A stretch of 64,000 nt of DNA from Sipunculus nudus (lineage: Eukaryota; Annelida; Sipuncula; Golfingiida; Sipunculidae), in assembly GCA_026874595.1 (NCBI GenBank), contig CM049314.1, positions 51,567,812-51,631,811 of the forward strand, given 5' to 3'. This document shows positions 375-63,020 of the stretch, in pieces (within the stretch, counting starts at the first letter, position 1; the number at the start of each line of letters is the position of its first letter). A model generated the notes under the pieces. The model was not told the DNA's origin and did not search any database. It saw nothing but the letters and a program-made list of their open reading frames with translations. The translations under genes and the position numbers were made by a program.

Positions 375-1630
375 TTGACAAGAAGCAGTGAGACGTTTTC
401 AGGTTTGTCATGTCAAGCTGGTCATATGAGACAAAATGCCAAAAACTAGAACTACTTTGATGTAAAAGGCGTTATAAGCATTTCAGTGACACTTCGTTTG
501 TTCACGTTGCACAAGATATGGTGCGAGATTTGGGCAGACTTATGGCTTTATCTAATCAAGCAGTTCATTCGGACAAAATGCCGAAAACTAGACCTTCGTA
601 CCTATAAAAATCGCCGAGTTAAAAGCATTTTGGTGAAATCTCGTGTTTTCTCGTTTGACGAGATACGGTGCGAGATTGTGCCTGATTTGGAGTTCTGTCA
701 TGTCAAGCGGGTCATGTGGAACTAAATGCTGAAAACTAGACCTGTCTAGCAGCAGTTCCGTGAAATGTCGTGTTTTCTCGTTTGACGGGATACGGTGCGA
801 GATTTTGCCTGACATGCATGTGTGTCGTGTCAAGCTGGTCTAGTGGAACAAAATGCCGAAAACCAGACGTGTCTAGCTGTAAAACTGGCCGAGTTATAAC
901 CAATGCCGTGAAATCTCATTTTTTCTCGTTTGACGAGATACGGTGCGACATTCGGCCTGACTTTCAGTTCTGTCATGTCCAGCAGGTCATGTGAAAGAAA
1001 ATGCCGAAAACTAGACCTGTCTAGCTGTAAAACTCGCCGAGTTATAAGCATTTCCGTGAAATCTCGTGTTTTCTCGTTTGACGAGATAGGGTGCGAGATT
1101 TGGCCTGACTTGCACATCTATCGTGTCAAGCTGATCATGTGGAAGGAAATGCCGGAAACCAGACGTGTCTAGCTGTAAAACTGGCCGAGTTATAAGCATT
1201 TCCGTGAAATTTCGTGTTTTCTCGTTTGACGAGATACGGTGCGAGATTTTGCCAGACTTGCATATCTGCCGTGTCAAGCTAGTCTAGTGGAACTAAATGC
1301 CGAAAACCAGACGTGTCTAGCTGTAAAACTGGCCCAGTTATAAGCATTTCCGTGACATCCCGTGTTTTCTCGTTTGACGAGATACGGTGCGAGATTTGGC
1401 CTGTCTTGTAGCTCTGTCGTGTCAAGCTTGTTTGGTGGAACGAAATGCCGAAAACCAGACCTGTCTAGCTGTAAAAGTCGCCGAGTTATAAGCATTTCCG
1501 CGAAGTCTCGTTTTTTCTCGTTTGACGAGATATGGCGCGAGATTTGGCGTGACTTTCAGTTCTGTCGTGTCAAGCTGGTCATGTGGAACAAAATGCCGAA
1601 AACTAGATCTGCCTAGCTTAAAAACTGACA
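375..1630. repeat. 148-bp tandem repeat array 1
   Basis: Imperfect tandem units of about 148 bp, some shortened. Each unit contains TCTCGTTTGACGAGA (6-bp stem, 3-nt loop) followed by GGTGCGAGATTTGGC, then TAGACCTGTCTAGCTGTAAA and GCCGAGTTATAAGCATTTCC. Short open frames occur on both strands at the same 148-bp spacing; they are by-products of the repeat and not genes. The array flows directly into module A at about 1631. Confidence 0.85.
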
Positions 1631-1960
1631 AAGTTACAAAAAAATGGTCGTGTTATTTCCAATTTCCATGATTTTTGCCCAAAAAATGTAACCATGGTAA
1701 CGGCAAATTTAAGTAAGCTACATATCAAAAGAAAGGCCAGGTGATGACGAAAAAAATGAGCTATTGCAGAAGTGGATAAGCCTATTTATGGCGAAGTTAT
1801 AGTGCAAAACCCGTTAACCACACCTGTCGTGACCTTGACCCTTGACCTTGGAGCAATGTTGACCAAAAACAATAGGGTTCCAGGGTGTTCGGTTGTCAAT
1901 CAACCCTGTAAGGGTCATGTCGATTGCTGCAAAATTGTGGCCAGGAGAGCGCAGACAAAC
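1631..1960. repeat. Module A copy (X-box plus TGACCT motif)
   Basis: A conserved segment of about 320 bp with AATGTAACCATGGTAACGGC near 1686, GCCTATTTATGGCGAAGTTA near 1780, GTGACCTTGACCCTTGACCT near 1828 and GTGGCCAGGAGAG near 1937. Similar copies are at 4231, 6056, 18650, 20810, 28055, 29322, 31260 and 35785. An open frame starting MDKPIYGEVIVQ persists in many copies, but so does an antisense frame, so I regard these as consequences of sequence conservation. Confidence 0.75.
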
Positions 1961-2212
1961 ACACAAAAAAACAAAAAAACAAAAAAACAAAAAAACAAAC
2001 AGACAAATGGACATACGCAACTGACCAACATGCTTGCCGGAAATCTTCCGGCAAGCAACAAATGGACATACGCAACTGACCAACCAACTTGCCGAAATCG
2101 AAGATTTCCGGCAAGCAATAAACAAACAAACAAGATGACCAGAGGTCACTCGCTTGCCGGAAATGGAAATGATACAGACAGATAGACAGAGAGTGCATGT
2201 AGAAACAGTCAT
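1961..2212. repeat. Hairpin array plus CAGA tail, second copy
   Basis: An A-rich CAAAAAAA stretch is followed by two CTTGCCGGAAATC-type inverted repeats (near 2030 and 2087), then AAACAAGATGACCAGAGGTCAC and the GATACAGACAGATAGACAG tail. The copy at 1-240 is closely similar. Confidence 0.7.
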
Positions 2213-3790
2213 ATGAATGAGCAACATTGTGGGGGCAGCAGAAACGGAAAATATTTTTATTTATGCATGCTGACCTTTAACAGCTGCATATCTTTCTAGT
2301 GTAAAAGGGACCAAGTTCAAAATTTTTTCATGAAATCCCGTTAATCTCGTTTGACAAGAAGCAGTGAGACGTTTTTCAGGTTTGTCATGTCAAGCTGGCC
2401 AAATGATATGATATGCCGAAAACTAGACCTATCTAGCTATAAAAGCCGCTGAGTTATAAGCATTTGCATGAAATCTCGTGTTTTCTCGTTTGACGGGAAA
2501 TGGTGCGAGCTTTGGCGAGATTTCCAGTTTTGTCATGTCAGGTTTGTCAAATATTACAAAATGCCAGAAACTAGACCTGTCTAGCTGCAAAAGTCGCCGT
2601 GTTATCAGCATTTACGAGAAATCATGTTTTTTTCTCGCTTGACGAGATATAGTACGAGATTTGGCAAGACGAGCAGTTTTATTATGTCAAGACGGCCAAA
2701 CGTTACGAAATGGCGAAAACTAGATCCGTCTAGCTGTAAAAGTCGCCGAGTTATAAGCATTTCCGTGTACTCTCGTGCTTTCTCGTTTGACGATATATGG
2801 TGCAGGATTTGGCCAGTCTTGTAGATTTGTCATATCAAACTCTCTGAATGTTATGAAATGGCGAAAACTACATCTGTCTAGCTGTAAAAGTCGCCGAGTT
2901 ATTAGCATTTCTGTGAAATCTCCTTTTTTTATCATTTGACGAGATATGGTGCGAGATTTGGCCAGTCTTGCAGGTTTGTCATGTCAAGCGGGTCATGTGG
3001 AACTAAATGCCGAAAACTAGACCTGTCTAGCTGTAAAACTCGCCGAGTTATAACCAATGCCGTGAAATCTCATGTTTTCTCGTTTGACGAGATACGGTGC
3101 GACATTCGGCCTGACTTTCAGTTCTGTCATGTCCAGCAGGTCATGTGAAAGAAAATGCCGAAAACTAGACCTGTCTAGCTGTAAAACTCGCCGAGTTATA
3201 AGCATTTCCGTGAAATCTCGTGTTTTCTCGTTTGACGAGATAGGGTGCGAGATTTGGCCTGACTTGCACATCTATCGTGTCAAGCTGGTCATGTGGCAGG
3301 AAATGCCGGAAACCAGACGTGTCTAGCTGTAAAACTGGCCGAGTTATAAGCATTTCCTTGAAATTTCGTGTTTTCTCGTTTGACGAGATACGGTGCGAGA
3401 TTTTGCCAGACTTGCATATCTGTCGTGTCAAGCTGGTCTAGTGGAACTAAATGCCGAAAACCAGACGTGTCTAACTGTAAAATTGGCCCAGTTATAAGCA
3501 TTTCCGTGAAATCCCGTGTTTTCTCGTTTGACGAGATACGGTGCGAGATTTGGCCTGTCTTGCAGCTCTGTCGTGTCAAGCTTGTTTGGTGGAACGAAAT
3601 GCCGAAAACCAGACCTGTCTAGCTGTAAAAGTCGCCGAGTTATAAGCATTTCCGCGAAGTCTCGTTTTTTCTCGTTTGACGAGATATGGCGCGAGATTTG
3701 GCGTGACTTTCAGTTCTTTCGTGTCAAGCTGGTCATGTGGAACAAAATGCCGAAAACTAGATCTGCCTAGCTTAAAAACTGACAAAGTTA
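2213..3790. repeat. Leader plus 148-bp tandem array 2
   Basis: Leader 2213-2340, then about ten units of about 148 bp. The first units (2400-2930) are a divergent subfamily with GCTGAGTTATAAGCATTTGC; the later ones match array 1. Part of the distal array (about 3430-3790) is repeated about 448 bp further on. Confidence 0.85.
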
Positions 3791-4230
3791 CAAAAAATGG
3801 TCGTGTTATTTCCAATTTCCATTATTTTTGCCCAAAAAATGTAACCATGGTAACGGCACTTGCATATCTGTCGTGTCAAGCTGGTCTAGTGGAACTAAAT
3901 GCCGAAAACCAGACGTGTCTAGCTGTAAAACTGGCCCAGTTATAAGAATTTCCGTGAAATCCCGTGTTTTCTCGTTTGACGAGATACGGTGCGAGATTTG
4001 GCCTGTCTTGCAGCTCTGTCGTGTCAAGCTTGTTTGGTGGAACGAAATGCCGAAAACCAGACCTGTCTAGCTGTAAAAGTCGCCGAGTTATAAGCATTTC
4101 CGCGAAGTCTCGTTTTTTCTCGTTTGACGAGATATGGCGCGAGATTTGGCGTGACTTTCAGTTCTGTCGTGTCAAGCTGGTCATGTGGAACAAAATGCCG
4201 AAAACTAGATCTGCCTAGCTTAAAAACTGA
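3791..4230. repeat. Truncated module A fused to a repeated block of array 2
   Basis: Module A starts normally (TGGTCGTGTTATTTCC, ATGTAACCATGGTAACGGCA) but breaks at about 3859 straight into mid-unit 148-bp sequence (CTTGCATATCTGTCGTG). The sequence that follows (3870-4230) duplicates 3422-3782. The join looks like an unequal-recombination junction. Confidence 0.7.
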
Positions 4231-48959: not shown

Positions 48960-49265
48960 ACAAATGGCGGCTGTGTGTAAAACTCGGAAGTCAGTAGCCG
49001 GAAGTCGGAAGCCAAGGCTTTTTCATAAATATAAAGTGCTAAAACATGCACAAGTTACCTCTAGATCAACACCATTTTAATATCTATTGATAGAATAAAG
49101 TCTGTTCTATCATTCCATGAAGAATCATTTGTTATCCATTTTGTAATCTGAAAGTTATAGACGATTTTGTGCTCGGAAGCCACTCGGAAGCGCCGGGATG
49201 CGGTCCAATTAAATGTGTAAAACTCGAAAGTCACGGAGACGCACTGGTCAACATATGGTCAGTTT
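48960..49265 (+). mobile_element. Short repeat with GTGTGTAAAACTCGG edge
   Basis: Begins GGCGGCTGTGTGTAAAACTC and ends near AATGTGTAAAACTCGAAAGT and GCACTGGTCAAC. The reverse complement of 61120-62350, excluding the 61190-62113 insert, aligns along its whole length (shared CTTCCGACTTCCGG, ACTTTCAGATTA and GAATGATAGAACA on that strand). It has no open frame and is non-autonomous if mobile. Confidence 0.65.
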
Positions 49266-50911
49266 AGAGCCACATGGCAAATGCAGTTTCATTGCATGCA
49301 TATATTTAAAGTGCTTATGATTGTGCTTGTAATGAGTATATAATACAATACATTGTACATACTAAAATATGATAAAAGAAATCCGAATACGACTTTAAAA
49401 ATACATTTATAAATTACGATATCATTAATATTAAAACAGTTTTCTTATATTTTCCTTATGAGAGCAAATACCCAATATATTTAATATTATCATAATATAT
49501 TGGAAATTCAATATATCCTGATAGGACAACGCTGGAACAGCAACAAACATATGTGTACCGAATAAGACGTAATTACATTAAATGTGTTTTATAACGTGAG
49601 AATTCTACGATATTTTTTTTAAATTAAGATATATCATAGTAAGGGATACAATAGAACAAGTCATATATTACATACTTATACATGTGTGATTATAAAATCT
49701 AATATGTTTTTATGGTTAAGCATAAAGTTGGTTTTAAACAATAAATAAAATATTTTCAACCTTTTCTTTCATACTTATTCAACCATGATATTTATTTTCT
49801 ATTTATATATTTTTATTTTTCTTGATATTTTTACAACATTATTAAAATAATTTAACTTCAAATAAATTGATATTTCAGAAAATTTGAAAATATTTTTATA
49901 ATTCATGTCACTCTCAGACGTTATGTGCGTAATAAGGGCATCTAAAAACAGAATGTGTTCCTAGCTTCAATTAAGGAACTGCACAGAGTGACGATTACAA
50001 CGATCTCGATAAAGAAATTCCTATTTTGTGTTAGGAGGAGATCGTTGAATGTCAAATCTTAGATAAATAATCTCATAAATAGGATCTTATTGACACATAA
50101 GACATGGGAGGCTTCAAGTAAAAGTCTGTATGTTTGGAGGTTAATTGGTACACGTGCCTTAAAGAAGCTACGGATATAGGCATTTTTATCCAACCGGTTG
50201 CTTAGCTAAGATTCATACCTTGAAATTCCATGCATAAAAACTGTTCACGTCATACAATAATGAAATGAATCCTTTCCGATGATTTTTCGACAAATACCGA
50301 TCAAATCAATTACTGTGGAAAATCTGGTTTAATATTTACCGCCAAGATAAAAATGTCAATGATAAATATCAATTATTCCCATTCTTCTTTGATAAAATAG
50401 CAAGTAAACGTCTTTATAAAAAAATCCTTTTCATGCACATGAATATTATCTATACACTCGATCACAATCTTTATTTGATACTTATATATTTACCCTTTTC
50501 GTAATTAAATTGACAAAAAAAAAACAAGTTAACAGGAAGCTTATTCTTAGGCCTGCATGGTAATCACTGAACAATAGTCGGAATTCTATGAAGTAGTGCC
50601 GTTCGTTTTCGGACCGGACTCCCTTCGGACCTCATAGTTGCTTGTATCAGGTTCTGTTATAAAACTGATTATTTAATATCTATAAGAGACTGCTCAACAA
50701 AGCCGTTTTACTCTGTTACGGTTTATTTTCAAACATTTACTGAATCATTTTTGCCAAGCTAAATGTTTTGTTGATGTTTTATTGATTTGTTGTTGAATTT
50801 TATTTCTGTTGGCGCGATTTACATTATGTATATAAAAAGTATTAATGTTTGTGCCGTCTGGTTTTTTTATAAATTTCGGAACATTAATTTTCCGAACATT
50901 GTACATTACAG
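49265..50911. other. AT-rich spacer, no gene seen
   Basis: No open frame above 60 codons, no recognised repeat. It ends in the TACAG target duplication of the LTR element (50907-50911). Confidence 0.5.
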
Positions 50912-51082
50912 TGTGATGTACTCTGCTTGAAGAACGAGCTTAACACTTGTATGCCCAAGACTGTGTTTTTATTGTGCCGCACATAAGCGACAAGCGGGAT
51001 ACCTTTTTTGACCATGACCGATCACTTACACGGGCCGCTTAGCTCAGTAACAATATATGTAAACACGGTACAATACATTACA
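50912..51082 (-). repeat. 3' LTR of the retrotransposon
   Basis: 171 bp, TG...CA ends, uninterrupted. It differs from the reconstituted other LTR at one position in GTGCCGC-A/G-CATAAGCG and two in GGGA-TA/CC-CC. Confidence 0.95.
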
Positions 51083-51095
51083 TCTCCCCTCTTCA
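51083..51095 (-). other. Polypurine tract
   Basis: On the - strand, GAAGAGGGGAGA directly abuts the 3' LTR, the expected primer site for plus-strand DNA synthesis. Confidence 0.85.
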
Positions 51096-51391
51096 GATAA
51101 AGTGAGATATGAACACAATACATGAAGTATACTTAAAGGTAAATTGCAGTAAGTCCTGAAACACTTAATGATTGTCCGGTTATATCATTGGGTGGGTATA
51201 GATTTAGTAGCAAGTACAAGTTATCAAACTTAGGCATGTATTAATTGAATAAGCCTGTTTACTGAAATTTAGGGCAATTAGTTAAACTTAACACTACACA
51301 AGGAAGGAGAGGTTACCAGCACATCACTTCCGCAGGTGACTTTACCTCACCTGTCCCTAACTAACGATATGCGAGTTACTGATCTTAAATT

Positions 51392-54300
51392 CTATAAGTT
51401 CAGTCTGTCTGGTGGCTTTACGACCCTTCCATATCTGGTGGTTCTTTGAGAGTTTCGAGGTGATGGCGGTGCGGCTGTGACACTTGGTGTTACTTGCGCT
51501 GAGGAAGGTTCTGGTGATGTGGCTGTTTCCTCATTGTCATACCAATTATGATCAGGAAGCTGATGACGCGACTGGTTAGCAACTGCAGTGCTGGAACGAA
51601 GATCCTGTCTGGTGCGACGGAACAGCTGCTCACCGTTGTTAACAACATAAGAACGTGGAGAACTGTGTGGTTCCACAACAACTCCGGGGGTCCATGTATG
51701 ATGACCAGGATAAGGTGCCATTCTAATTTCCTCTCCAGGTTTAAGTGATGTGCGGGGCTCACTTGCTCTTTTGCGATCATAATAATATTTCTGGTTAGCT
51801 TTATCACTGTCTAAAAGCTGTTCGACTTTCTCTGTGCTATGCCCTGTTGGCATCAGAAGCGTACTAGCTGCTGGTAACAAGTTACGTGGTCTTCTGCCCA
51901 TAAGTAACTGTGCTGGTGACAAACCTACTGACTCTAGGGGGGTTGTCCTATAATCTAATAAGGCAAGGTGTTTGTCTGTAGCCTTTTTCCACAGTTTCTT
52001 GACTGTCTGCACAGCCCTTTCTGCTTCACCATTGGAGTGAGGTGTGTGGGGTGATGACGTCTTATGTATAATGTTGTAGGTCTTGCAGAAAATACTAAAC
52101 TCTTCTGAAGCATACTGGGGACCATTGTCAGTCCGAAGAATGGTAGGTATGCCATGCCTGCTGAACTGTGACTTAAGTGATTCAATAGTTGCGCGACTAC
52201 ACAAGTTCTTGAGTTCATCAACTTCTACAAATTTTGAATAGTAGTCCACTAATAACAAATAATGCTTACCTTCAAGTTCAAAAAGGTCAGAGGCTACTTC
52301 TTGAAATGGAAGCGTTGGAGTCTTTGTTGGTTTCATCGGTTCTCTTGGTAGTCTGTTTTGAAAGTCTGCACATTTGGAACAGTTTTTAACTAGCTCTTCT
52401 ATAGCTGAATTCATCCCAGGCCAGTAGAGTACTTCTCTGGCACGTTGTTTACTCTTGACTATGCCTAGGTGCGACTGGTGCACTAACTTCAGCATATCTG
52501 CATGCATACTGGGAGGAATCACGATACGCATTCCTTTGTATACGATACCATCAAGTATGCTAAGTTGACTTCTAGAGTCCCAATATGGACGTATTGATAT
52601 GGGTACTTCTTTCCTGAAGTCTGGCCATCCTGATTTGATTATTTGTAGCAAGTCACTAAGCTCTGCTGTTGTAAGCTCTTTGATATCAGTGTATTTCTGG
52701 TCACTGACTGATATAAAACTTAGCATGGAGATGGATTCCAGGCTTTCCATCTCTGGTTCACTTTCAGTTAGTTGAGCTCTTGACAAGGTATCAGGCAATT
52801 CCATGTCCTTGCCCCGTCTATACTTAACAGTAAGATCATGCCACTGTAGACGTAGACGCATCCGTTGTAAGCGCATTGGGGTTTCTAGCAATGGTTTCTT
52901 GTATATATCCTCCAGTGGCTTATGGTCATTGTAAACAGTGACGTGTTTACCAAATATATACTGGTGAAACTTTGTACAAGCATGCACAATAGATAACATT
53001 TCCTTTTCAATCTGTGCATACCGTGTTTCAACATCAGTTAATGATCTTGACGAGTATGCGACAGGCTTGTTATCTTGGAGAATAACAGCTCCTAGTCCTG
53101 AGCTACTAGCATCACAAAATATTTCCACTGGCCTTGAAGCATCAAAAAACTGTAGCACTGGCGGGTTGCTGCAAAGTTCCTTAAGCTTGTCATATGCTAC
53201 CTGCTGAGCTGGTTGCCAAGTGAACTCAACATCTGCTTTGAGAAGCTGACAAAGTGGTGCATCTACTTCACTGAGGTTTGGAATGAATTTTGAGAGGTAG
53301 GTGACAAATCCTAAAAAGCGACGGACACCATCTTTGTCTCTGGGCGGCGGCATGCTCTTGACTGCCTGGACTTTAGCTGGGTCTGGTTTGAGACCTTCAC
53401 CTGTGAGTAGATGTCCTACGTAAGGTACACATGATTGTCTGATGTGACACTTAGTGAAGTTCAGCTTCAGATTGTATGATGTAGCTCTTTCTACTACTTT
53501 CCTTAGTACAGCATCATGTTCTTCCATGGATGGAGTGGCAATGAGAATATCGTCCATTATAGCTGTTGCCCCATTTATGCCTTCGAGCATTTCATCCATT
53601 ATGCGCTGAAATAATTCTGGCGCACATTTCAGTCCGAATGGAAGTCTGAGCCAACGAAATCTGCCGATAGGCGTATTGAAGGTTGTCAATATTGATGAGG
53701 CTTCATCAAGTTCAATTTGTAGAAATCCCGATTTTGCATCCAGTACGGACAAAACCTTTGCATTTGGCATCGATGATACAACCTCTTCAATAGTGCGGAG
53801 GGGATAGTGCGCCCGTTTGATTACTTTATTCAAATCACCAGGATCAATACAGATCCGTATCTTGTTGTTTCGTAGAACTGCAACCATGGAACTTACCCAT
53901 TCGGTGGGCTGGTCTACTTTGGCGATGTAGCCATTGTCCACCATTTCTTTTAACTTTTCGATAATTCTAGGCTTCAATGCTGCCGGCTGTCGTCTCACTG
54001 GATGTACCACACCCTTTGCGTCTGGATCTATTTTGATTGTGTATTTGCCTGGCAAAGTACCTGTTGTACGTGCAAGATCTGGAAAGCAGTCGAGGCCTGG
54101 TGGAGTTTCGGGTTTGTTAGTTGCATGGCTGCTAGTGGCGCCATCTATGGCTTGCAGGCGAGCAATCAGACCTAGTTGTTCTGCAGCGGCTCCACTGATT
54201 ATGTTTTCCTGTGAAATGTCCACAATTTCAAACTCAGCCATTGTCTCACAGTGTTTATGCTTGAGGGAGAGATCAACTGCAGCTACTGGTTTAATCCTGT

Positions 54301-55171
54301 GGTTTGAGTATGTACGTAGCACTTTGTTAGATTTCTTAAGCTGACCTTCATGCAGGAGTTGCTGATAACTATCAACAGTTATTGTGTTGCAATGTGCTCC
54401 TGTATCTATGCGGAACTGAACTTTCTGTGACAGAATTTCTATGGACTCTGTCCACTTGTCAGACTCTGTCAGTTCACCGGTTTGTGTCAATTTAATGTCA
54501 AGGACTTCTAGGTCATCAAAAAATTCATCCGGAGCTGGGTCTGGCTCAACATCAATCAATCGGATCAATCGTTTACGACACACAGCTGCCCAGTGATTAG
54601 GCTTTTTGCAGAATGAACAAGATGATCCTTTGGCTGGACATATGCCTGAGTTCCATCTGTGGCGAGAATCTTTGCCACAGTGTGTACATTTACTTTGATC
54701 ATGCTGAGAGCTTAATGTGCGCTTACCAGCTGACTGCTGCTCAGACGGAGCTTTAGACTGTATCTGACCACAATGTGTTTGTGAATGCCGATAGATAGTT
54801 TGCTGACTGTTGAGATCATGAACATTCTTTCTAGGTCCTGTATAATGCTGTTTTGGTCTACCTTTAGGTTTAACAGACAATGAAACTGCTGACAAATGAG
54901 AACCCTCATCTCTAACAATTTTCATTTGTTTCTGTGACATTTCAAACTGCTGGGGTATTTCTATGGCTTTAGCCAAGGTCAATTCCTCACCTTTATCAAG
55001 CAGTCTTTCTTGTACACGTTTTTCACGGACTCCAGCAATGATTGCATCAATAAGCATGTCATCTGGATCACTGTATTCGCAGTCCATTAAAATCAGACGC
55101 AAATCTTTGACAAATCGATCAAAACTTTCTGTTTGTCCTTGTTTACGCTGTTTAAATCTGTGGCGGGGCAA
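51392..55171 (-). CDS. gag-pol: Gag (C-terminal part)-Pol polyprotein of a Mag-like Ty3/gypsy retrotransposon
   Basis: 1259 residues on the - strand. Residues 1-90 continue a retrotransposon Gag domain. Zinc-knuckle cysteines are at 162/165/178 (atypical spacing) and a regular CX2CX4HX4C at 185-198. Aspartic protease: FRIDTGAH with Asp256. Reverse transcriptase spans about 390-580, with Asp478 in VLDAKSG and the catalytic pair in IMDD (540-541). RNase H: Asp687, Glu722 and Asp749 in NDHKPL. Integrase: zinc-binding His898, His901, Cys931, Cys934, and a DD35E set at Asp962, Asp1015, Glu1051. A GPY/F-like C-terminal region is near 1144-1170; no chromodomain follows. All catalytic residues appear present and the frame is open throughout. 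The listed Met is unlikely to be the natural start, because the Gag N-terminus is upstream in another frame (55152-55448). The product would assemble particles and copy and integrate the element's RNA. Confidence 0.95.
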   Translation of the reverse strand: MPRHRFKQRKQGQTESFDRFVKDLRLILMDCEYSDPDDMLIDAIIAGVREKRVQERLLDKGEELTLAKAIEIPQQFEMSQKQMKIVRDEGSHLSAVSLSVKPKGRPKQHYTGPRKNVHDLNSQQTIYRHSQTHCGQIQSKAPSEQQSAGKRTLSSQHDQSKCTHCGKDSRHRWNSGICPAKGSSCSFCKKPNHWAAVCRKRLIRLIDVEPDPAPDEFFDDLEVLDIKLTQTGELTESDKWTESIEILSQKVQFRIDTGAHCNTITVDSYQQLLHEGQLKKSNKVLRTYSNHRIKPVAAVDLSLKHKHCETMAEFEIVDISQENIISGAAAEQLGLIARLQAIDGATSSHATNKPETPPGLDCFPDLARTTGTLPGKYTIKIDPDAKGVVHPVRRQPAALKPRIIEKLKEMVDNGYIAKVDQPTEWVSSMVAVLRNNKIRICIDPGDLNKVIKRAHYPLRTIEEVVSSMPNAKVLSVLDAKSGFLQIELDEASSILTTFNTPIGRFRWLRLPFGLKCAPELFQRIMDEMLEGINGATAIMDDILIATPSMEEHDAVLRKVVERATSYNLKLNFTKCHIRQSCVPYVGHLLTGEGLKPDPAKVQAVKSMPPPRDKDGVRRFLGFVTYLSKFIPNLSEVDAPLCQLLKADVEFTWQPAQQVAYDKLKELCSNPPVLQFFDASRPVEIFCDASSSGLGAVILQDNKPVAYSSRSLTDVETRYAQIEKEMLSIVHACTKFHQYIFGKHVTVYNDHKPLEDIYKKPLLETPMRLQRMRLRLQWHDLTVKYRRGKDMELPDTLSRAQLTESEPEMESLESISMLSFISVSDQKYTDIKELTTAELSDLLQIIKSGWPDFRKEVPISIRPYWDSRSQLSILDGIVYKGMRIVIPPSMHADMLKLVHQSHLGIVKSKQRAREVLYWPGMNSAIEELVKNCSKCADFQNRLPREPMKPTKTPTLPFQEVASDLFELEGKHYLLLVDYYSKFVEVDELKNLCSRATIESLKSQFSRHGIPTILRTDNGPQYASEEFSIFCKTYNIIHKTSSPHTPHSNGEAERAVQTVKKLWKKATDKHLALLDYRTTPLESVGLSPAQLLMGRRPRNLLPAASTLLMPTGHSTEKVEQLLDSDKANQKYYYDRKRASEPRTSLKPGEEIRMAPYPGHHTWTPGVVVEPHSSPRSYVVNNGEQLFRRTRQDLRSSTAVANQSRHQLPDHNWYDNEETATSPEPSSAQVTPSVTAAPPSPRNSQRTTRYGRVVKPPDRLNL

Positions 55172-55448
55172 TGCGTTTGTTTTTTCTAGGACGGATATAA
55201 TTCATGAATTTGTCCAGTACTTTAGAGGGATCCTCCTTTTCACCATCCTGCCAGTCTAGAGTTTTATAAATTTCCCTACCTTGTTCGCCTAGCCATGTGC
55301 CGAGCCACCCTGCCTGCTGCTTGGCCGTCTGACCGGAAAGGGGGCCATTAAGTACAAAGTCAACATGGTTTCGAAATCTGTCGAACTCCTGGTACAAATC
55401 TGGCGAGTCCCAGTCGATGTTTGGGTGTTCGAACTGCGCAGTTGCCAT
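55152..55448 (-). pseudogene. gag: Gag N-terminal fragment, separated from Gag-Pol by a frameshift
   Basis: 98 residues beginning MATAQFEHPNIDWDSPDLYQ, 74 bp inside the 5' LTR, the normal place for a Gag start. The frame leaves the Gag register at RPRKNKRIA, where a run of four C lies on the - strand; the overlapping downstream frame resumes the expected Gag sequence at once. One extra C explains this. The site is inside Gag and not at the gag/pol boundary, so programmed frameshifting is unlikely; a mutation or a base-calling error is more probable. Confidence 0.85.
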
Positions 55449-55502
55449 ATTCCTGTGCCTGACAGTTTAAACTGGCTTTTTAGTTCAGGGTTTGTAGAAA
55501 AT

Positions 55503-55522
55503 TATCCCATTATCTGACACCA
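55503..55522 (-). other. Primer-binding site, tRNA-Leu type
   Basis: On the - strand, TGGTGTCAGATAATGGGAT starts immediately after the LTR. It pairs with the 3' end of metazoan tRNA-Leu (…CCCACTTCTGACACCA) except at a couple of internal bases. Family attribution is from memory of tRNA-Leu sequence. Confidence 0.8.
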
Positions 55523-55632
55523 TGTGATGTACTCTGCTTGAAGAACGAGCTTAACACTTGTATGCCCAAGACTGTGTTTTTATTGTGCCGCGCATAAGCG
55601 ACAAGCGGGACCCCTTTTTTGACCATGACCGA
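55523..55632 (-). repeat. 5' LTR, internal-side fragment
   Basis: 110 bp of the LTR next to the coding region. It ends with the 9-bp duplication CATGACCGA (55624-55632) made by the foldback-type insertion. Confidence 0.95.
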
Positions 55633-55648
55633 GGGAGGGTATAAATTC

Positions 55649-56606
55649 GGCAGTGTGTAAAACCCGGACCCCACGGATCCCGGACCCCCAAAACCTATTT
55701 CCACACTGTCGATTTTATATACAGATAAAAGCACCCCTGTTGCTGATATAAGAACAAAGTAAAGTCACCTAATGTTAAAACTTTGTAAATAACCATTTCA
55801 ATGAAAGATTTAAGTATACAAAATATTTTGCTGGAGACGGACCCCAACTGCTTGACTAAGGTGAATGTTACATTTTGACGGACCCTAGTAAACGCCGCTC
55901 ATATTTTCATTTATGACTCCATGAGAAAGAATAAACACTCGTGTCAAACATTAAATATGATTATTTGTTATTTTACGTGAAAATATTATATAGTGCAGGC
56001 ACACTCGGAGAGATTTATTTTAAGTGCGCCAGCGGTCATTGCATGCGGACCTGAGACTGATAGGTTTCGTGTTCCATTCATGAACAACCATCCGATTTAA
56101 AGTTGGTAATAACATAATTACCCAAAGGAATGGTTGATTACTTGCATTGTAAGAAACTCCAGGTACAAACATAATGATTTTATAAATGTTCTTATTATTT
56201 TGTTATTACGATAAACATGAAACAAATAGCAAATATAAGAATATGAAGAAAAAGTAAGACAACATGAAAATATATAAAGAAATAAAAACAGAATAACTTA
56301 ATCACATGGGTGTTATGCCTAAACGTGATGTTAAAATATGTACTAAAGAAATGGTAAAACAACGAGTAAAAGCAAGGGGTCCTTGGGATCCGTGAGGTCA
56401 GTGCGCCAGGGTCCGTAAGTGTTAATTATAAATTTTATGCAAAACTTGCCATTTTTATGGATTTTTAACACACATAATATAAAATACGTCTTTAGATACC
56501 ATTCTGCTAATTATCTCGACAAATTACCTTGAAAGTTTTAAGAATTATAAATTTTTCTTGGGGTCCGGGATCCGGGGTCCGTGGGGTCCGGGTTTTACAC
56601 ACTGCC
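55649..56606 (+). mobile_element. 958-bp inverted-repeat element nested in the foldback arm
   Basis: Ends GGCAGTGTGTAAAACCCGGA...TCCGGGTTTTACACACTGCC, with GC-rich GGATCCCGGACCCC subterminal stretches and an AT-rich centre. TATAAATT to its left and TATAATT to its right look like a 7-8-bp target duplication of the foldback terminus with one base change. A second copy is at 61190-62113 in the opposite orientation. No open frame, so non-autonomous. A 7-8-bp duplication would suit hAT-type transposition, but the superfamily is not established. Confidence 0.8.
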
Positions 56607-57415
56607 GTATAATTCGCTGATCAGCGCGCTGATCAGCGGTCTGCAGTATAAAACGCTGATCAGCGCGCTGATCAGCGACCTTTCAATTAAAGCATTAATT
56701 TCAGGCAAATTAGCCCCCATAAAGCAACCTTCGACTAGTTTGTGATTAAATATGATTAAACGCACCTTTTCTATCAATGTTTCGTATTATCAAACATATG
56801 CATATATTTTATTGTGTTAATTATTATACATGAAACGCAACCTACCTGCCAGTGACTATTTCGCTGATCAGCAGCGCTGATCATCGACCTTTCAATCCAA
56901 GCATTAATTTCAGGCAAATTAGCCCCAATATAACAATCTCTATGACTATTATGTGATTAAGTGTGATCTGAAGACACATGTTCTATAAGTATTTCGTATT
57001 TACAAACACACGAATACATTTTTAATGTATTACTTATTATGCATGAAACCTTTCTACCACCTATTATTACGCTGATCAGCAAACTGCGCAATCGCTTGAC
57101 GATGATCAAGTGCTCATCGGCAACGATTTACGTATTTCTTGACTATGATAACTGTCATAGTAATTCTCTATAATGGTAACATAGAGGACTCCCAGTTGTT
57201 TTACCTATTTCCTGTGAAAACGGAATGATTGCCAATACATCGTACCACATACAATTTACAAATATCCGTTCCCCACCGACCACTCGGAGATATTAGCTGA
57301 CAGTAGGGGGCGCTGCAGTAATTTGTTGGTAGGTGTTAACCGGCCAGATGATAGAAAAAGCTGAGATATATACTAAATTAGTTTGAATGTATTTAAAAAT
57401 TTGAATTTATTTACA
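56607..57415 (+). repeat. Left long inverted repeat of the foldback element
   Basis: Pairs with 59520-60333. Two internal direct copies of a subrepeat of about 240 bp (starting near 56617 and 56870). Contains CAGTAGGGGGCGCTGC at about 57303, which fits the CTCF core consensus closely. Confidence 0.85.
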
Positions 57416-59519
57416 ATATCATGCACTATTTTTTTAGTGAAAATGCCACTAATGAACCCACAGCAATATATTGTCGACTGTGGATTTTTTTTTTTTGGCA
57501 ATCGCTAATATTGTTTAATATTGTTTCAATAAATTTGAAAGTAGGCCTATAAGAACAGGTAAAACAACATGTATTTTTATCAGACAAAAGTGAGAGCGCA
57601 TTAACTTAATTGTTAAGAAGAAGACATATTTAATCAATTTCCAATAAGAAACCGTAATAGGATTTACAATTAAATGAAAGGGTCTTTCTAAGAAAAACTA
57701 TAGGTTTCAACAAGTACAGCATCTGAAAAATAACATCTTAATATTTATTTTATAGAGTCTAACTAGCAATAAAAATGTAAACCATATAAAATTATTTTCA
57801 GCAGAGCAGGCTGTTTCATGAAAAGTTATAGTTTTGGATAATTTAATGCATTAGTGTATTATCAATTTCAACACCGTTTCAGACTTAAAGCAATGGTTGG
57901 AAATTATATTTATGAAAGATTGAGCTGGAGACTAGTATTTTCATGCGAATTTCACGGTCCCACATAATTAATTGAGAAAAAATAAGAAGGGTACACTTGT
58001 GCAATGTACTTTATAATAAAAAAAATATATTTTAACCTTGGAAATTGCGTATTTTTAATTGTATGTGTTACGTTTAGATCCAGAAACAAAATACAACTGC
58101 AAACCACAGAAGGTATAATGCAATAAATAGAAGGAAAATATAGCAATCTTTCTCGGTCAATAAAACTGTTGGTGATAAAAATATTTTCTAATATGTCTCT
58201 AAGTCATTTTTTTGTTCTTAAATAAATGAATATTTTCAATATATAACGGTGCTGAAGAAGGAGAACGGTGTTGAATTAATATAAATGAAATCATTGGCAA
58301 AATTATTACTTAAAGCATGCAGACTTCTTTTATAATAAATATTTTAAAAGTTCAATATTTAAAAGTACATATCACATTGATCCCTATAAAATCGATGAAA
58401 TTCTGAATAACAATGCTAGTTTGTAGAATTTAGATGTTACATCTATCCTTTTTTTGTTTCAACATCGTTCATCGACATTCACTTCCGTTAAAAGTTAAAA
58501 ATAACGGTGATGATTTACAATGGTTTTGAAAAAAAGTTATGATATTCATTAAAAAAGATTAATTACTCCTAAAACCTTTCTATAGAGTACTCAGTAAATT
58601 CATATGTTGATAGTGTGAGCTGTATCCCAAAACAATGAAAAGCATTCCTACTTCAATCATTTTGGAGTAATATATAAGTAACGGTGTAAGAGCAATAAAT
58701 ATACGGAAATTTTTACACAATTATGGAAACTTCCGGTTGTAAATGAAAAAAATACATACCGATAATGATGGTTTTATGGAGTCATTTTGTGACGTTATTT
58801 CAACTTCTACTTCAACTTCAACTTTATCGTCTCTATAACGGTGTTGAAAAAAACGTTCTGGCGACCCACATTTTAAACGCAAAAGAGTGGGAAAATAAGA
58901 GGGATGTAAAGAAACTTGTGGAAGTTTTTAAGGAACGATTATATTAAACATGAAGAGTGAAAAAATCCTCGGGCTATATACGTACCATTCTTAATAAAAA
59001 TAAGAGGATGTCATTTATATATCTTTTTATATGTCTTTTATTATGGCAAGGGACAGGTAATTTTTAATGACCTTTGAACCATTAAGTATAAATTTTAAGC
59101 ATGTAAGGTATTATTTCGCTAAATAAATAAGCTCAAATTAAGCAGAAAATATGGTACTGCAATTCAATCCCGAAAGCAAAATGACAGATTATATATATAT
59201 ATAATTTAAAATTATATGTATAATATATGGAGTTGGCATTGGTATGTCATGCGTGTGCTTTTTTTATACTGCAATATATTTTCTGTGATACTTTAAATAA
59301 ATCTTCACTCATTCTATTTGAGACACTGATGAGTGGCTTGTGAAATGGTCTGTCAGTTTTCATTTGTGTGAAAAAAATTTACTATTCTCATGGGGAAAAC
59401 TGAATAAATGCACTGGCTCTTTGGGAAAGAAGTATAGTGTATAGGTCAATTGCATACTTAATAAATTTCATTAAAATCAAAGGTACTCATTTTAGAGCTT
59501 TGCGATATACATTTAACAT
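57416..59519. other. Foldback element interior
   Basis: AT-rich, with no intact transposase. A 60-residue frame on + at 58765-58947 ends EWENKRDVKKLVEVFKERLY; it falls in the segment that also matches 44540-44960 and might be the tail of a lost coding region. I do not recognise it. Confidence 0.5.
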
Positions 59520-60333
59520 ATTTTATTTTAATAAATTGAAATTTTATATACATTCAAACCAAGTGTATATCTCAGCTATTTTTATCACCTGGCCGGTGAA
59601 CACCTACCAACAAATTACTGCAGCGCCCCCTACTGTCAGCTAATATCTCCGAGTGGTCGGTGGGGAACGGATATTAGTAAATTGTATGAGGTACGATGTA
59701 TTGGCAATCATTCCGTTTTCACAGGAAATAAGTAAAACAACTGGGAGTCCTCTATGTTACCATTATAGAGAATTACTATGACAGTTATCTTAGTCAAGAA
59801 ATACGTAAATCGTTGCCGATGAGCACTTGATCATCGTCAAGCGATTGCGCAGTTTGCTGATCAGCGTAATAATAGGTGGTAGAAAGGTTTCATGCATAAT
59901 AAGTAATACATTAAAAATGTATTCGTGTGTTTGTAAATACGAAATACTTATAGAACATGTGTCTTCAGATCACTCTTAATCACATAATAGTCGGAGATTG
60001 TTATATTGGGGCTAATTTGCCTGAAATTAATGCTTATGTTGAAAGGTCGATGATCAGCGCTGCTGATCAGCGAAATAGTCACTGGCAGGTAGGTTTCGTT
60101 TCATGTATAATAATTAACACAATAAAATATATGCATATGTTTGATAATACGAAACATTGATAGAAAAGGTGCGTTTAATCATATTTAATCACAAACTAGT
60201 CGAATGTTGCTTTATGGGGGCTAATTTGCCTGAAATTAATGCTTTAATTGAAAGGTCGCTGATCAGCGCGCTGATCAGCGTTTTATACTACTGACCGCTG
60301 ATCAGCGCGCTGATCAGCGAATTATACCCTCCC
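59520..60333 (-). repeat. Right long inverted repeat of the foldback element
   Basis: Inverted copy of the left arm, uninterrupted to the terminus, with a few substitutions. Ends in two CGCTGATCAGCGCGCTGATC-type palindromes before TTATACCCTCCC. Confidence 0.85.
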
Positions 60334-60342
60334 CATGACCGA

Positions 60343-60403
60343 TCACTTACACGGGCCGCTTAGCTCAGTAACAATATATGTAAACACGGTACAATACATT
60401 ACA
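60343..60403 (-). repeat. 5' LTR, outer fragment
   Basis: The remaining 61 bp of the split LTR, ending ACATTACA and followed by the TACAG duplication. Confidence 0.95.
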
Positions 60404-60408
60404 TACAG

Positions 60409-61120
60409 CATTAAAATACCGAGGAAATATCAAATCGTTCTGCAAAAACAGAAACAATTTTATTTTATATGAACGTTAATGTTACAATCGGCATCATATC
60501 TATTAACAAATGTATTGTGTATTTATTTCTGTCAAGGTTTTGTTTATGTTTGTTTTTCTTTTTTTAAAGTTGTCCAATACATCTGATGAATCATTATCAA
60601 ACAATTCAATGTGAAATATTATGCATATTATGCTGTCTATTTTGGCAACATTTTAAAACTTGAATTGAAAAGGGTCTCATTTTACAGCATGAACATATCG
60701 GGGAAAAAATCACACTTTGAATTTGTAAAATGTGCATTCTGATCATGAAATATAAAATATATTTTGGAATCAATTAAATATTACATAATAGATTTTTGAG
60801 TCAAGAGATACATAATCCTGATGACAATTTTTATCAATGGAACATGAAAAGGTTTGTCAATTTATACATGAAACATAAAACATTTTATCGAAACAACCTT
60901 TAGAAACATTTCCAGGACGTCGTGTTTCTGTCAAATTTTAATTCTATTTATCATTTTAATTAATCAATTATTACTATGTTGTTTTACAAAATGAAAAAAA
61001 ATATATTACCACAAAATATTATTTTAAGAAAACAGCATCATGAATGTTACACAACAGATTGAATTATAAAAAATGAGTCATTTGGAAGATATTGAAAATG
61101 CTTGACACGCATGCTGACCA
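60409..61120. other. AT-rich spacer, no gene seen
   Basis: Flank of the LTR insertion. No open frame or repeat recognised. Confidence 0.5.
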
Positions 61121-62355
61121 TTTGATGACCAGTGCATGGCCGTGGCTTCCGAGTTTTACACATTTGGACTACTACCCGGCTCTTCCGAGGGCAGTGTGTA
61201 AAACCCGGACCCCGGACCCCGGATCCCGGACCCCAAGAAAAAACCTATAATTATTAAAACTCTCATATGGTAATTTGTCGAGATATTTTGCAGAATAGTA
61301 TCTTAAGACGTTTTTTACATTATGTGGGTTAAAAAACATAAAAAGTGGTCTGTTTTGCAACAAAAGTTGATAAATTACCCTACGGACCGTGGCGCACTGA
61401 TCTCACGGATCCCATGGACCCCTTTTACCATTTCTTTTGTACATATTTAAACATCCCATTTAGGCATAACAACCATATGATTTAGTTATTGTGTTTTTGT
61501 ATCTATATTATTTTCATTTTGTCTTATTTTTTCTTCATGTTCTTATATTTGCTATTTGTTTCATGTTTAGCGAAATAAAAAGTATATATAATAAGAACAT
61601 TTACAAAATCATTATGTTTTTACCTGTCGTTTCTTGAAATGCAAGTCATCAACAATTTCTTTGGGTAATTATATTGTTACCAACAGTAAATTGCATTGAT
61701 GTTCATGAATGGAACACAAAACCCTGCATGCATTGACCGCTGGCGCACTTCAGTGTGCGTGCACTATAATATTTTCACTTGAAATATCAAATAATCATAT
61801 TTAATGTTTGACATGAGTGCTTATTCTTTCTCATGGAGTCATAAATGAAAATATGAGCGGGGTTTCCAGGGTCCTTTAAAAATGGAATAGTCATCAAAGT
61901 CGAGCAGTTTGGGTCCATCTTCAGCAAAATATTTTGTATACTTAAAATGTTCATTGAAATGGTTATTTACAAAGCTTCAACACTGAGGGACTTTACTTTG
62001 TTCTTATATCAGCATCAGGGGTGTTTTTATCTGTATATATAATCGACAGTGTGGAAATTGGTTTCTGGGGTCCGGGGTCCGGGATTCGTGGGGTCCGGGT
62101 TTTACACACTGCCCGCGGGCACTTCCGAGTGACTTCCGAGATGGCTTCCGAGCACAGAATCTACTATAACTTTCAGATTATTGAATTAATAACTATGATT
62201 ATTCACAGAATGATAGAACAACCCCTAGTGTATCGATAAAAATCGAAATAGTATTGATGTAATGGCATTTTGTATATGCCGCTTTATTGTTTTGTTTCTA
62301 CAAAAATCCTTGGCTTCCGACTTCCGGCTTCCGAGTTTTACACACAGCCACAAAT
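61120..62355 (-). mobile_element. Second copy of the 48960 repeat, split by a 924-bp insertion
   Basis: The outer parts (61120-61189 and 62114-62355) align in reverse complement to 48960-49265, sharing CTTCCGAG, ACTTTCAGATTA, AATGATAGAACA and GAGTTTTACACACAGCC. The inner part is the element at 61190-62113. Confidence 0.7.
61190..62113 (-). mobile_element. 924-bp inverted-repeat element, second copy
   Basis: Same ends as 55649-56606 (GGCAGTGTGTAAAACCCGGA...) in opposite orientation; the interior matches through segments such as TTTACTTTGTTCTTATATCA. CTTCCGAG precedes it and occurs again 8 bp beyond its right end, so the exact right boundary or target duplication is ambiguous. Confidence 0.8.
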
Positions 62356-63020
62356 GGCTTGGTAAAACCCGGACTCGGACTCCGGACTCGGTGCAAATAA
62401 TCGCCGGACCCCGAAACAACCGCCTATAAATAATGTTTGGGATGTTGTTTCATTAAATATTTACTTGTGTTTGAAGCTTTGCTATTTATTCTTTCAGTTT
62501 TGAAAATTGCTGTGTCTTAAATCATCTGTAACATCCACTCTGAACGTTTTATTTTACTGGACTCCATCTCGGACTCAAACAAAGGCATATGCTGTAAGCC
62601 AGGCAACTGGTGCATACTTAACGGGAACATCTGTCGCCGTTTCCAAGGAATAAAACTCAGAGGTGGACTGTCAGATATTGGAAAATCAAACTCAGTTGTG
62701 CACCTACTACATAAATAACAGTTACCATTGTATGAAACATCCCATGAATACAGAAAGTGTGTTTGTCATTAGTATTTATAGTAGCCTATCTAAAAACTCA
62801 ATATGTGAAATTACCTAATTACCCTAATTACACCATAAATCATACCACATATACATTTATATTATTGGTTATTATATATAAATATATATAAAAAAGCATT
62901 ATTAAATTTTATAAATAAAAATATATTAATAACCATACGCAAGTTTAATTATTTATACAACATTCATACATGTTACTGTTATGGGGTGACATAAAAGCCG
63001 ACCGAATCACTCATTAGTCA
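62356..63020. other. AT-rich spacer, no gene seen
   Basis: Starts with GGTAAAACCCGGACTCGGAC, another variant of the AAAACCCGGA edge motif, without a partner. No coding region. Confidence 0.4.

Follow-up and report, generated by a model that had tools for sequence, protein, structure and literature searches.

Transposable elements nested four levels deep at one locus of the Sipunculus nudus genome

Among retrotransposons with long terminal repeats (LTRs), the domain order reverse transcriptase (RT), RNase H and integrase defines the Gypsy (Ty3-type) group, and non-autonomous Mutator-type miniature inverted-repeat transposable elements (MITEs) have, as a class, short inverted ends and 9-bp target duplications. 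From bivalves, the Gypsy C-clade elements Steamer and Steamer-like have been described with this same domain order; the reports give LTRs of 153–219 bp, total lengths of 4.54–4.97 kb, an LTR start of TGTAACA and a 12-bp primer binding site, TGGTGTCAGAAG, in whose last three bases one or two changes occur (PMC8905726, PMC11046912), and intact open reading frames (ORFs) in only some sub-families (PMC8905726). Tm1, a Mutator/Foldback family, is documented as having foldback-type ends, mostly 9-bp duplications and non-autonomous members, next to a copy with a Phantom-type transposase (PMC3169594). Tetris of Drosophila virilis combines long inverted arms, which carry ~200-bp direct repeats, with a non-coding variable middle and 8–10 bp duplications, and its description reports that no autonomous copy was found (PMC4079207). 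Here, we analyzed a stretch of 64,000 nucleotides from the annelid Sipunculus nudus (GenBank assembly GCA_026874595.1, contig CM049314.1, positions 51,567,812 to 51,631,811 of the forward strand; hereafter the window, to which positions refer unless a locus or contig handle is given). At one locus of this window, transposons are almost certainly nested four levels deep, built by successive independent transpositions.

From the outside inwards, the nest consists of an inverted-repeat DNA element (48969–62349), a Gypsy-type LTR retrotransposon (50912–60403, minus strand), a foldback element (55633–60333) and a 958-bp inverted-repeat element (55649–56606). A first-pass annotation, made from the letters of this stretch, had described a three-level stack. 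Its nesting and element types stand, and its coordinates were borne out by the sequence almost to the base; the number of levels rises to four, since the sequence around the LTR element, supposedly “host” flank, turns out to be another element, bounded by a perfect 9-bp duplication. Further copies of all four families are present within the 1.43-Gb genome, and the LTR, foldback and 958-bp families each show the same duplication length at other sites, which argues that the duplications did not arise by chance. As a measure of the chance level, random 9-mers of the window agree at ≥8/9 positions with a frequency of 3.7e-4 per register; nine registers were tried.

The LTR retrotransposon is bracketed by TACAG, as first annotated, at 50907–50911 and 60404–60408. 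Its intact 3' LTR of 171 bp occupies 50912–51082, and its 5' LTR is split into an inner part of 110 bp (55523–55632), which ends in CATGACCGA, and an outer part of 61 bp (60343–60403), all on the minus strand. Removing the foldback does restore, as had been claimed, a 171-bp LTR, with 168 positions identical to those of its 171-bp partner; without the foldback and one copy of its duplication, the element measures 4782 bp. A domain search, for which the frame was divided into pieces, found RT, RNase H and integrase in that order between the LTRs. Most of gag-pol forms an open frame of 1269 codons (51392–55201, minus strand), and the first part of gag is read in a different frame (55152–55466, minus strand). 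The gag frame is broken where the two overlap (55152–55201); the relatives L002 and L004 are open there and interrupted elsewhere, and a single gag-pol ORF is interrupted in all four other copies examined as well (over their first 1.5 kb). Because the 5' LTR is split after LTR nucleotide 70, between a TATA-like motif (nucleotide 26) and AATAAA (nucleotide 110), and because the gag frame is broken, this copy would now be inert. The genome search for the LTR family returned 16 matches from 16 candidates, three of them pieces of the nest element. All four other insertions with both outer flanks seen, two paired copies (C15, C3) and two solo LTRs, show a 5-bp duplication (by eye).

The outer element, recognized by its genome-wide relatives, its inverted ends, its duplication and a paralogue (L075), is flanked by identical copies of ACAAATGGC at 48960–48968 and 62350–62358. 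By subtraction, its net size is ~2.95 kb; it contains the LTR nest and, in its right arm, a second copy of the 958-bp family (61190–62113) in opposite orientation, which is 82.6% identical to the first. The ends of the outer element are GGCTGTGTGTAAAACTCGGAAG in inverted orientation, and its inverted arms are ~70% identical over ~320 bp. The 958-bp family has similar ends (GGC, T or A, GTGTGTAAAAC), and a shared or related transposase may therefore act on both. Just beyond the right duplication, at 62359–62400, we observed TTGGTAAAACCCGGACTCGG, which is similar to the ends of elements with 9-bp duplications; judging by this similarity, another such element may adjoin or enclose the outer element.

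Both flanks of the LTR element were compared with the genome. The right flank of the LTR element (60404–60900) occurs at 39 other places with 85–96% identity and at least 428 of 497 bases (best 40 of 517 candidates scored, nest locus included; one 33-bp fragment left out). For 32 of these 40 places, a match of the left flank (50001–50820; best 40 of 434 candidates scored) lies within 20 kb on the same strand, and for 8/40 none was among the scored matches. The gap between the two segments, 9583 bp at the nest locus, is 84–94 bp in 29 of the 31 other copies, close to the 91 bp expected for an insertion-free site, and 1.7 and 2.7 kb in the remaining two; the 29 may include copies of one another, such as two mirrored places on C6. 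In the paralogue L075, the empty site of the LTR element was aligned base by base. Segment 50001–50820, which L075 lacks, was considered as a further insertion and rejected: it occurs at many genomic places, and 29 right-flank places have it 84–94 bp away on the same strand, which makes it part of the outer family and its absence from L075 a deletion.

Within the 5' LTR lies the foldback element, 4.7 kb long with GGGAGGGTATAATTC ends. It is bracketed by CATGACCGA at 55624–55632 and 60334–60342, in agreement with the first-pass annotation, and the left copy is LTR sequence. Its inverted arms of ~0.78 kb (56608–57391 and 59549–60326) are 96.8% identical over 784 bp and carry internal direct repeats spaced 208–209 bp; its middle contains no ORF of ≥90 aa. 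Arms and repeats of this kind, together with a 9-bp duplication within the 8–10 bp of such elements, mark it as a foldback. The family search gave 349 candidates, of which the best 40 were scored. The uninterrupted foldback end was found 283 times in 1.43 Gb (≤2 mismatches; control 0). Among 100 of these 283 ends, 34 facing pairs with a median distance of 3225 bp were counted and no close pair was arranged otherwise, while 32 ends had no partner among the matches listed within 15 kb. Both flanks were seen in 13 other copies, 11 of which have an exact 9-bp duplication (by eye), namely 9/10 pairs and 2/3 long copies; the third long copy agrees at 7/9.

The innermost element of 958 bp, with ends GGCAGTGTGTAAAACCCGGACC, sits in the left end of the foldback. 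It had been annotated as apparently bracketed by TATAA(A)TT; the element itself was found at the position given above, and this motif is only the core of a 9-bp duplication, GTATAA(A)TTC, present as GTATAAATTC with one extra A on the left (55639–55648) and as GTATAATTC on the right (56607–56615). Nine base pairs is also the usual length in the family, for which 804 candidates were found and the best 40 scored. Most of the 30 copies retrieved start with GGCAGTGTGTAAAACCCGG at both ends. After removal of one locus without a clear end and of the nest copy, the flanks repeat at ≥8/9 in 24 of 28 other copies (9-bp register, one-base shift either side allowed); three of the 24 (L059–L061) share the same nine bases and probably represent one copied event. 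The element contains no ORF of ≥90 aa. In addition, a member of this family was seen ~25 bp from an apparently truncated foldback end at L046 (C6:54164058-54165110), a second close association of both families.

The order outer element, LTR element, foldback is fixed. The outer element preceded the LTR element because the insertion site is uninterrupted in the paralogues and the 5-bp duplication lies in outer-family sequence. The LTR element preceded the foldback because the foldback duplication is LTR sequence, found without interruption in the partner LTR and eight of nine other LTR copies (TGACCATGACCGATCA; the ninth has one substitution). That the foldback in turn preceded the 958-bp element is likely, not proved: the right junction between the two has a single occurrence in the 1.43-Gb genome (≤3 mismatches; 0 for the reversed-pattern control), 283 foldback ends are uninterrupted, and the 958-bp element cuts the terminal 15 bp of the foldback off from the rest of the arm. 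The first-pass annotation had regarded the order of three insertions as fixed, which holds for LTR element before foldback by virtue of the LTR-derived duplication; the last step is favoured, and the duplication alone does not prove it. In all likelihood the nest was assembled as follows. The ~2.95-kb DNA element inserted with a 9-bp duplication, and the Gypsy-type retrotransposon then integrated into it through its integrase with a 5-bp duplication. The second 958-bp-family copy entered elsewhere in the outer element, an event not orderable against the LTR element. A non-autonomous foldback subsequently inserted into the 5' LTR with a 9-bp duplication, and another member of the 958-bp family probably came last, into the left end of the foldback, with foldback bases 7–15 as target and again a 9-bp duplication. 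For the DNA elements, the transposase would have been supplied in trans.

The last two steps are not proved as separate events, since a foldback that already contained the 958-bp element could have arrived by a single cut-and-paste move with an identical outcome. Cut-and-paste leaves no second copy behind, so that the unique junction is compatible with such a joint arrival. No other foldback end in the genome has the same right junction (≤3 mismatches), and the 958-bp insertion probably destroys the site at which the foldback transposase would act; we therefore consider a joint arrival very unlikely. An arrangement assembled in part from mis-joined repeats also deserves mention because every part is a repeat with other copies and inverted repeats pose difficulties for assembly. 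Four sets of duplications that agree at the element ends, with family-typical lengths where tested, would not result from a random mis-join, and an artefact of this kind is hardly credible. Successive insertion of four nested elements remains our reading, and several observations that weigh against it are collected here. The left duplication of the 958-bp element has the extra A, so that the nest copy scores 7/9 ungapped, most simply explained by one later base insertion. The duplication of the second 958-family copy is imperfect, reading C(T/A)CTTCCGAG and carrying a few additional bases on the right, and 4/28 other copies of this family have no duplication at ≥8/9. For the outer family, L075 is the sole other copy whose duplication was inspected; the duplication is imperfect there, and L075 has a short left end. 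The tenth foldback pair (C10) has inverted flanks and no direct duplication. Finally, a transposase source was not found for any DNA element in the nest: none of the 66 MULE (Mutator-like element) matches that lie on compared stretches, of 131 in total, was within 85 kb of 100 of the 283 foldback ends, and by eye, three long foldbacks (L071–L073) show no transposase-like frame among ORFs of ≥80–90 aa, as judged without a family library or introns.

Next, we considered divergence as a clock. The two LTRs differ at three positions. The 5' LTR carries one of these changes and the 3' LTR the other two, which are adjacent, and all three differences are absent from nine other LTR copies; two states shared by the nest LTRs are unseen in the others. 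This is as expected if one template gave rise to both LTRs and mutations followed, and the differences are read most simply as two or three post-insertion changes. Template switching or conversion would also account for just three differences, two of them adjacent, and would leave no clock at all; with none of the three states in the nine other copies and two shared states absent elsewhere, this origin appears improbable. The first-pass annotation had proposed the three differences as a clock for the oldest insertion. They are confirmed as private to the nest. The Poisson range for three events is roughly 0.6 to 9, a more than tenfold span, and two or three events are therefore too coarse to date anything. 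The foldback arms were rejected as a second clock. In their well-aligned part (columns <750) they differ by 13 substitutions; for six of these, each state is found in one or more of 27 other arms (30 arm loci retrieved, of which two were the nest copy and L032, without terminus, was excluded) and the six thus probably predate the nest insertion, while seven have one state private to the nest copy. Over the whole arm, 26/782 aligned positions differ, and the inner end aligns poorly. Private differences amount to ~0.5% per foldback arm site in the well-aligned part versus 0.9% per LTR site, which agrees with the LTR element preceding the foldback and does not demonstrate it.

Regarding the transposase, 9-bp duplications and foldback arms suggest that Mutator-type enzymes, supplied in trans, mobilized the DNA elements. 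Foldback structures arise also in other superfamilies, as two reports document (PMC3169594, PMC4079207), and the assignment is accordingly tentative. The 131 MULE-domain matches in the genome (150 of 252 candidates scored) demonstrate that Mutator-type genes exist, yet no link to the ends of the nest elements was found. A 607-codon open frame with near-equal scores is shared by 43/131 matches on 16 of contigs C1–C17; scores and frames of these unaligned copies suggest a recent burst. A Phantom-like MULE (L074) was discarded as the transposase source of the foldback, with no matching ends in the 4 kb read; compared with the ends of the 958-bp family, this 4-kb locus, whose own ends were not located, gave one partial internal match only (≤4 substitutions). 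L074, at 532–2331 (+) and 2829–3929 (−), encodes FLYWCH and MULE domains and, beside them, a C-type lectin ORF of 366 aa. L071–L073 were likewise rejected as transposase-coding foldbacks; by eye and BLAST they are foldbacks with other DNA inside, and the 9.3-kb L071 apparently contains an inserted reverse-transcriptase element (RT-like ORF, by eye).

Elsewhere, foldback ends were also found at the centre of one palindrome and possibly of a second. At C10:6852048-6855912 (L022/L013), the foldback occupies the exact centre of inverted flanks that are 99.85% identical over 1355 bp, of which 28 are foldback end; the terminal 16 bp of the foldback recur on both sides, and a direct 9-bp duplication is absent. 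At C6:54619980-54645253, outer-family matches of equal score and opposite orientation are placed symmetrically, ~5.2 kb to either side of a pair of foldback ends (54626603 and 54638633); these positions suggest a second foldback-centred palindrome. Whether the family seeds large palindromes is doubtful. If it does, foldback hairpins in this genome would act as starting points for inverted duplications of adjacent host DNA.

Altogether, the four-level nest is ordinary in kind, a piece of ordinary genomic debris. Its value lies in the intact duplications, since nested insertions of this sort can be aged relative to one another with no need for a calibrated clock. The families are usable as entries in repeat libraries; the broader significance is modest. 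Among the titles listed from the open-licence literature on bivalve foldbacks, nested insertions in molluscs and Phantom/foldback elements, none describes these families, which does not prove their absence.

How, then, do the elements compare with described systems? The retrotransposon is of Gypsy type and, in part, fits Steamer-like elements: it shares their domain order, its LTRs of 171 bp and total of 4.78 kb fall within the reported ranges, and it likewise has few copies in a genome of >1 Gb (PMC8905726, PMC11046912). The sequence after its 5' LTR, TGGTGTCAGATA, corresponds to the primer binding site with the described changes, and the relative L009 has TGGTGTCAGAAG itself. The LTRs start with TGTAATG instead of TGTAACA and end with ATCACA. 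Because the start motif deviates, we call the element Steamer-like and do not file it as Steamer. The 958-bp family resembles the Mutator-type MITEs in its short inverted ends and 9-bp duplications; its candidate copies number in the hundreds, the nest copy has no ORF of ≥90 aa, and by this analogy the family probably belongs to the same superfamily. For the foldback, a Phantom-type transposase copy distinguishes Tm1, none being linked to the nest family; foldback-type ends, 9-bp duplications and non-autonomous members are common to both (PMC3169594). With Tetris, an element of a different host, the likeness is one of structure and extends to the arms with their direct repeats, the non-coding middle and the length of the duplications (PMC4079207). 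Of the published parallels that we met, Tm1 and Tetris come closest.

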